Below, piece after piece: positions 6,836-43,858 of a stretch of DNA of 44,923 bases. The stretch spans positions 1 to 44,923 of the forward strand of contig QZIM01000022.1 of NCBI GenBank assembly GCA_003599055.1, written 5' to 3'. Position 1 is the first letter of the stretch, and each line of letters starts with the position of its first letter. The translations under genes were made by a program, and so were the position numbers. This stretch comes from Candidatus Woesearchaeota archaeon. GTDB lineage: Archaea; Nanobdellota; Nanobdellia; Woesearchaeales; ARS49. The notes below the pieces were generated by a model. That model had not been told where the DNA came from, did not search any database, and was given only the letters and a program-made list of their open reading frames with translations.

Positions 6836-6947
6836 TAGGACGGCCATAGGAGCCGGGTTCCACCTGGTCTCATTCGAACCCAGCAGTTAAACCGGCTTCC
6901 GTCGCGGCCTGTACTCCGTTATGGGGGAAATCCGCGAAGCTGTCCAC
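6836..6947 (+). rRNA. rrf: 5S ribosomal RNA
   Basis: The ends pair as GGACGGC (6838-6844) with GCTGTCC (6939-6945), forming helix I. Helix II pairs GAGCCGG with CCGGCTT. The conserved loop segment CTCATTCGAACCCAGCAG and following GTTAAACC match the 5S loop B/C core. GTACTCCGTTATGGGGGA matches the helix IV/loop E region. Size is about 112 nt. The gene stands alone, with its own TATA box and a T-rich 3' flank; exact ends are approximate. Confidence 0.92.
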
Positions 6948-7155
6948 CTTTTCTTTCAAACTTTCTGCGGAAAGTTTGATCAAAATGCGCTCTTCTGCTC
7001 TGCTCGAGAAACAAATCATAAAGGTTCGCTTCGCGAACCTGTTTTAAACATTCTCTCGCATCGCAGATGTCGCGCTCTCTATCTTGCAACATCAGCAAGT
7101 GCAGCAGACGGCATCTTCACAATCATTAAATACCCAAATTGCCCCAAATTTTCTT
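6948..7155. other. Non-coding spacer with two perfect hairpins after 5S rRNA
   Basis: No credible gene is seen between 5S rRNA and the epimerase. Two hairpins are present: an 8-bp stem AAACTTTC/GAAAGTTT with loop TGCG (6958-6977), and an 8-bp stem AGGTTCGC/GCGAACCT with loop TTC (7022-7040) followed by GTTTT. They may terminate or process the 5S transcript. CATTAAATA at 7125-7133 is the likely TATA box of the downstream epimerase, 27 nt before its ATG. Confidence 0.6.
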
Positions 7156-43563: not shown

Positions 43564-43587
43564 AAAAAAGGGGGCCTGGAGACCCCC
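43564..43587 (-). terminator. GC-rich hairpin plus T-run ending the initiator-tRNA/ncRNA unit
   Basis: On the minus strand GGGGGTC-TCCA-GGCCCCC (43587-43570) forms a 7-bp stem with one G-T pair and is followed by six T. It resembles an intrinsic terminator, unusual among the plain T-run terminators of archaea. Confidence 0.6.
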
Positions 43588-43604
43588 AAATAGCGGGAGG
43601 TGGA
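43585..43604. repeat. Distal copy of the initiator-tRNA 3' end
   Basis: CCCAAATAGCGGGAGGTGGA repeats the tRNA 3' end and flank at 43683-43703 (one A fewer), 99 nt away. On the minus strand it reads as T-stem, acceptor 3' strand and following T's and G's. Confidence 0.85.
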
Positions 43605-43678
43605 CGTTCAGCCCGTGCACCAAAGCACTGAACGGCGTTTGAACTCAAACCACTTGCGTGGCTGGAGTTCAAATCCAC
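43600..43678 (-). ncRNA. Candidate structured RNA downstream of initiator tRNA-Met
   Basis: Read on the minus strand, it folds as a three-way junction: P1 GTGGA/TCCAC (43678-43674 with 43604-43600); P3 TTTGAACTC/GAGTTCAAA (43673-43665 with 43646-43638), capped by CCAC-GCAA-GTGG, a GNRA tetraloop on this strand only; P2 CGTTCA/TGAACG (43634-43629 with 43610-43605), topped by GTGC-TTTGGT-GCAC. Linkers are minimal (CGC). GTGGATTTGAAC is complementary to 12 nt of the tRNA T-arm. It lies between tRNA-iMet and a terminator-like hairpin, so co-transcription is likely. It may be a functional RNA or the relic of tRNA duplication or integration. Confidence 0.5.
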
Positions 43679-43689
43679 TGTGCCCAAAA

Positions 43690-43764
43690 TAGCGGGAGGT
43701 GGATTTGAACCACCGAGCTATGGGTTATGAGCCCATCGGGAACTCCAGACTTCCCTACCCCGCT
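43690..43764 (-). tRNA. Initiator tRNA-Met (anticodon CAU)
   Basis: The acceptor stem pairs AGCGGGG with TCCCGCT, then discriminator A. The anticodon loop is CTCATAA on stem ATGGG/CCCAT, with the three G-C pairs that mark initiator tRNA. The A1-T72 type start AGCGGG and T-arm GGTGGTTCAAATCCACC agree with archaeal initiators. TATA TTTATAAA at 43790-43797 is 29 nt upstream. CCA is not encoded. Confidence 0.93.
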
Positions 43765-43789
43765 GTAGTTTAACCGCGCTTCTTGACGC

Positions 43790-43797
43790 TTTATAAA
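43790..43797 (-). promoter_or_regulatory. TATA box of initiator tRNA-Met
   Basis: TTTATAAA in the context GCAATATTTATAAAGC (complement) lies 29 nt from the tRNA 5' end, the expected spacing. Confidence 0.7.
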
Positions 43798-43858
43798 TAT
43801 TGCTGTTACTTGCTCCTCACAGCACAGGATTAAATACCGCAATTCCCTTATTTTTTTC

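Follow-up and report, generated by a model that had tools for sequence, protein, structure and literature searches.

In the archaeal genome studied here, small folded and apparently non-coding units lie downstream of approximately half of the tRNA genes, and each unit ends in a copy of the tail of its tRNA. We consider it likely that the initiator tRNA-Met locus is an archaeal tRNA-linked repeat (TLR), in which a structured non-coding unit has been inserted at T-loop position 59/60, displacing an older, intron-bearing tail. The locus lies on a stretch of 44,923 nt (contig QZIM01000022.1, Candidatus Woesearchaeota archaeon) that is referred to as the window. The window genome (G000), of which the window is contig 12, is 1.15 Mb in size and 88.7% complete. 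Its relatives include G001 from the same genus, G009 and G014 from the same family, and G242 from another family; G001 and G009 are listed at 100% completeness. What we observed concerns the anatomy of the units, their occurrence across the genome, covariation, the sharing of modules between loci and the displacement of an intron.

The initiator tRNA-Met locus

The tRNA-Met gene (Table 1) is of the initiator type, with G-C pairs in the anticodon stem (GGGCTCATAACCC), and is without an intron as it stands. A preliminary description of the locus had reported that the tRNA 3' end recurs 99 nt downstream. Indeed, the 14-nt tail TCCACCTCCCGCTA is exact in both copies at this offset, and the flanks TATTTTGGG and TATTTGGGG lengthen the repeat imperfectly to about 20 nt. 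Between the copies lies the antisense arm GTGGATTTGAAC, which by direct reading is the exact complement of GTTCAAATCCAC in the tRNA, as had been claimed, but it does not form the first 12 nt of the unit, since the 11-nt linker TTTTGGGCACA precedes it. The minus strand folds into the three-way junction previously proposed, consisting of GTGGA/TCCAC, TTTGAACTC/GAGTTCAAA with a GCAA cap, and GTTCAGTGC/GCACGGGCTGAAC. The folding energy of the unit is −36.6 kcal/mol (z −3.7), or −54.4 with the terminator included (z −4.35), hence a z of about −4; folded as DNA, the unit gives a z of −2.8. The second copy, read at 43644–43591, was also described correctly as GTTCAAA, a 33-nt hairpin at 59/60 and then the tail, as was the end of the unit in a GC hairpin and T6.

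Table 1. Features of the initiator tRNA-Met locus in the window.
Feature	Position	Strand	Basis
tRNA-Met(CAT)	43690..43764	-	ARAGORN; Rfam tRNA 55.3 bits
First 14-nt tail copy TCCACCTCCCGCTA (tRNA positions 60-73)	43690..43703	-	
T-loop/T-stem GTTCAAATCCAC, complemented by the antisense arm	43699..43710	-	sequence reading
Linker TTTTGGGCACA, 11 nt	43679..43689	-	sequence reading
Antisense arm GTGGATTTGAAC, 12 nt	43667..43678	-	
Type A hairpin (C)CAGCCAC-GCAA-GTGGTTTG	43645..43666	-	
Second T-loop GTTCAAA, up to the 59/60 joint	43638..43644	-	
33-nt piece, putative remnant of the ancestral intron at 59/60	43605..43637	-	homology to iMet intron of G001
14-nt tail TCCACCTCCCGCTA, second and apparently displaced copy	43591..43604	-	
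GC hairpin and T6, putative original tRNA terminator	43564..43587 (hairpin 43587-43570)	-	likeness to G001/G014 hairpin
TATA-like box (ATATTTATAAA region), 5' of tRNA, approximate	43787..43800	-	sequence only

The initiator tRNA genes of G001 and G014 carry introns at 59/60 (31 nt and 26 nt, respectively), removal of which leaves a proper tRNA in both. The 33-nt hairpin in the second tail copy resembles the G001 intron, a likeness reached in 0 of 2000 shuffles. The earlier suggestion that the locus contains the relic of an intron-containing tRNA copy thus holds for this hairpin. Read for a bulge-helix-bulge, the 33-nt piece has the central TTCA/TGAA helix, and it looks like a relic because its outer T-stem partner is not adjacent. 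Furthermore, a hairpin similar to the GC hairpin that follows the second copy lies directly behind the initiator tRNA in G001 and G014. Owing to these two likenesses, the second copy, intron and terminator together appear to be the original tail of the gene, and the first tail appears to have arrived with the inserted unit. The 33-nt piece shares its position with the archaeal T-loop 59/60 introns and is homologous to one of them; the unit differs from such introns in holding a whole tRNA tail and in being dispensable for a complete tRNA. The initiator tRNA of G009 has an apparent intron at another T-arm position, approximately 53/54.

On the TLR reading, a unit composed of a new 14-nt tail, linker, antisense arm, hairpin and T-loop copy would have entered the initiator tRNA gene at its 59/60 joint. 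Its intronless tail would then complete the tRNA, with the old tail, 59/60 intron and terminator pushed 99 nt downstream.

Occurrence of tail copies behind tRNA genes

Scanning for tail copies with up to two mismatches within 300 nt of a tRNA detected downstream copies at 21 of 39 tRNAs in G000, 12 of 34 in G001 and 16 of 42 in G009. Over the same length upstream, none of the 115 tRNAs in these three genomes had a copy (0/39 in G000). Given 21/39 downstream against 0/39 upstream, the recurrence of the tail at the initiator tRNA is more than chance. The 21 unit-bearing loci in G000 possess one to three copies each, and behind tRNA-Leu genes of G009 the antisense-hairpin segment recurs, with the 14-nt tail found four times in a row.

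Order-wide, tail copies were present at 6 of 36 tRNAs from the first-hit loci, five of the six being tRNA-Ser(GCT). In the distant, single-contig genome G035, one of the 12 tRNAs read (tRNA-Cys) has a single tail copy with a hairpin before it, and the class therefore extends beyond the family of the window genome. At the initiator tRNA of G053, from another family, a tail copy 114 nt downstream is followed by a repeat of the flank, which is a tandem duplication. Conservation downstream of tRNA-Met, which the preliminary description had put forward as a check on its fold, is divided: the sister genome G001 lacks the unit, and G242 carries it behind a tRNA-Met with an exact tail copy.

Anatomy and folding of the units

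In total, 63 units of 65–212 nt were collected, some in tandem arrays. The repeated block begins at position 60 in most units and the joint is nearly always at T-loop 59/60; in a few units (Arg, Cys and Pro-CGG) the repeated part of the tRNA reaches back towards the anticodon arm. Five module types, A–E, were named by eye. Type A, to which the initiator tRNA hairpin belongs, has a hairpin between an antisense and a sense T-loop, and type B carries a long hairpin tipped by CTGAYGNAGTC. Branching is seen in types C and D, the latter ending in GTAA before the tail, and type E follows a T-loop in three distal G009 units. The second unit at tRNA-Glu CTC of G009 is of type C and appears to hold another insertion, a long inverted repeat of about 140 nt.

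Type A units (n = 24) were aligned without structure and the structure was then drawn by hand on that alignment; a MAFFT alignment of the initiator tRNA loci was excluded from structure work as it misplaced the G242 unit. Both sides vary in 12 of 18 pairs, and the covariation score is 0.351 against 0.182 when shuffled and at most 0.127 when slid. The covariance model used for type A is R2, R1 having been dropped because its outer helix was lost. G-U pairs outnumber A-C mismatches (40 vs 18), and the sense strand has a slight folding advantage over the antisense strand (p 0.02), so it is probably the tRNA-sense strand that folds. An Rfam search of the units matched no family.

Hairpins with a C(GNA)G triloop, a loop that is exceptionally stable in DNA, were found 13 times in 8.2 kb of units (0.03 expected), and 0 times in the window and nine other loci. 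Matching of antisense arms to their tails is modest across all units, with a mean exact run of 5.3 nt against 4.4 nt when tails were swapped. A tRNA on the opposite strand, where GTTCAAATCCAC reads as a T-arm, was considered as the source of the antisense arm and dropped, as the arm is common to many units.

Sharing of modules between loci and genomes

Modules recur behind unrelated tRNAs. The Pro(TGG) module of the window genome is 95% identical over 42 nt to that of Leu(TAA) in G009, type B modules lie at Ser, Glu, Gly and Leu, and in G001 at Asp, and type A units were found behind tRNA-Gln in G003, G004 and G018. Seven genomes of the window's family account for most of type A, and a strong match was also obtained in G242. 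Within the window genome, the arrays at Leu(TAG) and Leu(CAG) are alike, and so are those within G009, but there with other modules; where the same tRNA was compared between relatives, both the presence and type of unit differed. As hairpin modules from different tRNA loci, and from different genera, resemble one another, the pattern speaks for movement or conversion of modules between tRNA loci rather than pure descent; gene conversion between tRNA loci could be a partial cause. Hairpin modules may thus spread between tRNA loci by recombination or by insertion at the 59/60 joint, with antisense arms that would retain or acquire a match to the local tRNA. The exact type A pattern was not found in viral contigs.

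At tRNA-Leu TAA of G014, the downstream tail matches other Leu tRNAs and not its own, as if it came from another locus. In the window itself, a structured stretch at 6949–7130 (+) lies 3' of the 5S rRNA gene (6836–6948) and is homologous to a long tRNA-Cys unit (75% over 83 nt with that of G009, 0/500 shuffles); this stretch has no copy of the 5S 3' end.

Comparison with E. coli tRNA-linked repeats

Escherichia coli K-12 contains 22 TLRs at ten loci, whose function is unknown (Egan and Landy 1978; Rudd 1999, as cited in PMC8144298). Each ends in 18–19 bp identical to the 3' end of the tRNA or rRNA gene that precedes it, and they also occur behind 5S genes (PMC8144298). There are one to five per locus, and transcription with the gene followed by processing has been shown for the rRNA-linked ones. 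The archaeal units are alike in lying directly 3' of a tRNA or rRNA gene, ending in the gene tail, occurring once to several times per locus and being structured. The initiator tRNA unit likewise lies immediately downstream of its tRNA on the same strand, with such units at several loci in the genome.

We read the E. coli tyrT-tyrV locus in the same way and found the tail TCCTTCCCCCACCA exact three times behind tyrV, with a period of 178, and once more between the two tRNAs. In the tyrT repeat the joint falls at position 60; the repeat also contains C(GNA)G hairpins, the antisense stretch GGGGAAGGA and GAGTAA|TCC, and across the locus GTAA or ATAA stands at the joint. The archaeal units share the position-60 joint, the antisense arm and the C(GNA)G hairpins, and GTAA|TCC is as in archaeal type D. 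The tail copy covers positions 60–73 as in E. coli but measures 14 nt, compared to 18–19 bp there, because CCA is not encoded. The archaeal units differ further in occurring at about half of all tRNAs rather than at few loci, in their additional module types (A, B, C and E) and in the displaced tRNA intron. The RtT RNA (Rfam RF00391), which represents the tyrT TLR, has the same anatomy; its covariance model gave four matches at the control tyrT-tyrV locus and none in the window or at seven archaeal tRNA loci. Kinship with the E. coli TLRs rests on anatomy because this match is absent, and we would class the window unit as a TLR by its positional features, not as RtT. The likeness could be convergence. 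Within collections of phages and plasmids, only enterobacterial records contained the E. coli unit. Arrays linked to tRNAs and called SPARTA have reportedly been described in DPANN archaea; if so, part of this pattern could already be known.

Function and origin of the units

The unit was initially proposed to be a co-transcribed regulator of the initiator tRNA, which is unsupported as stated since nothing in it is specific to that tRNA. In a broader form, it would be a functional structured RNA regulating its own tRNA, the antisense arm switching between the own and the second tail and so controlling maturation. The direct-inverted-direct layout would suit such a switch, as would the covarying helices, the slight advantage of the sense strand in folding and a minimum-energy fold of the whole 205 nt that pairs the 5' strand of the tRNA with the second tail. 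However, co-transcriptional folding would form the tRNA first, the initiator tRNA of same-genus G001 has no unit, units turn over among close relatives and unrelated tRNAs have modules in common, hence we regard a regulatory role as doubtful. For a TLR, transcription with the tRNA followed by tRNase Z cuts at the repeated tails would release both tRNA and unit, which may be tolerated or selfish because the tRNA is left intact.

The units might also be mobile, gene-less, integron-like cassettes that recombine at tRNA T-loops in a folded, single-stranded form, with the tRNA itself as attachment site, and that form one cross-domain class with the E. coli TLRs. Integron attC sites and cassettes similarly involve a folded single-strand hairpin, inverted arms, tandem arrangement and growth at the proximal end. 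The archaeal units are unlike cassettes in having no genes and in having arms which match the tRNA, and we think this explanation unlikely.

Less probable again is the scar of a larger element, whereby a tyrosine integrase placed the element at the 3' end of the tRNA and deletion then removed all but attL and attR. Such integration usually yields one complete and one partial tRNA copy (PMC9897764), as is the case here, and tyrosine integrases are common in these genomes and often adjoin tRNAs. On contigs C11 and C4 of G000, integrase and DNA methyltransferase-like genes lie directly behind tRNA-Thr(TGT) and tRNA-Gly(TCC), and these are probable genomic islands. Against a scar, all 63 units are small, with conserved hairpins and tandem occurrence, and this uniform size together with the covariation weakens it; the integrase-adjacent tRNAs that were read have no units nearby, and G004 carries a unit and gave no Phage_integrase match. 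The preliminary suggestion, a scar from integration of an element at the 3' end of the tRNA, came near, the element being a small structured unit found at about half of the tRNAs.

A CRISPR- or casposon-like, Cas1-type insertion with a 14-bp target site duplication is highly improbable and was rejected: the 14-bp duplication at the tRNA 3' end and the use of tRNA genes by family 2 casposons (PMC6614799) would fit, but Cas1 is absent in G000, G001 and G009, the register of the A. boonei casposase differs (TCAAATC approximately 8 bp upstream of its duplication; PMC6614799), and the intron is in the distal copy, which speaks against duplication of the tail because the proximal copy would have kept the intron, unless it was lost there.

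Implications

TLRs have so far been an unexplained curiosity of E. coli and its enterobacterial relatives since 1978. The units can be misread by tRNA finders, which affects the annotation of tRNAs in archaeal genomes such as these; ARAGORN made some spurious calls here and missed some tRNAs. The locus further suggests that a tRNA gene can shed an intron by gaining a new tail. A lineage in which TLRs occur at about half of the tRNAs, and whose members differ from their neighbours in the presence and type of unit, would make the origin and movement of these repeats testable by comparison.
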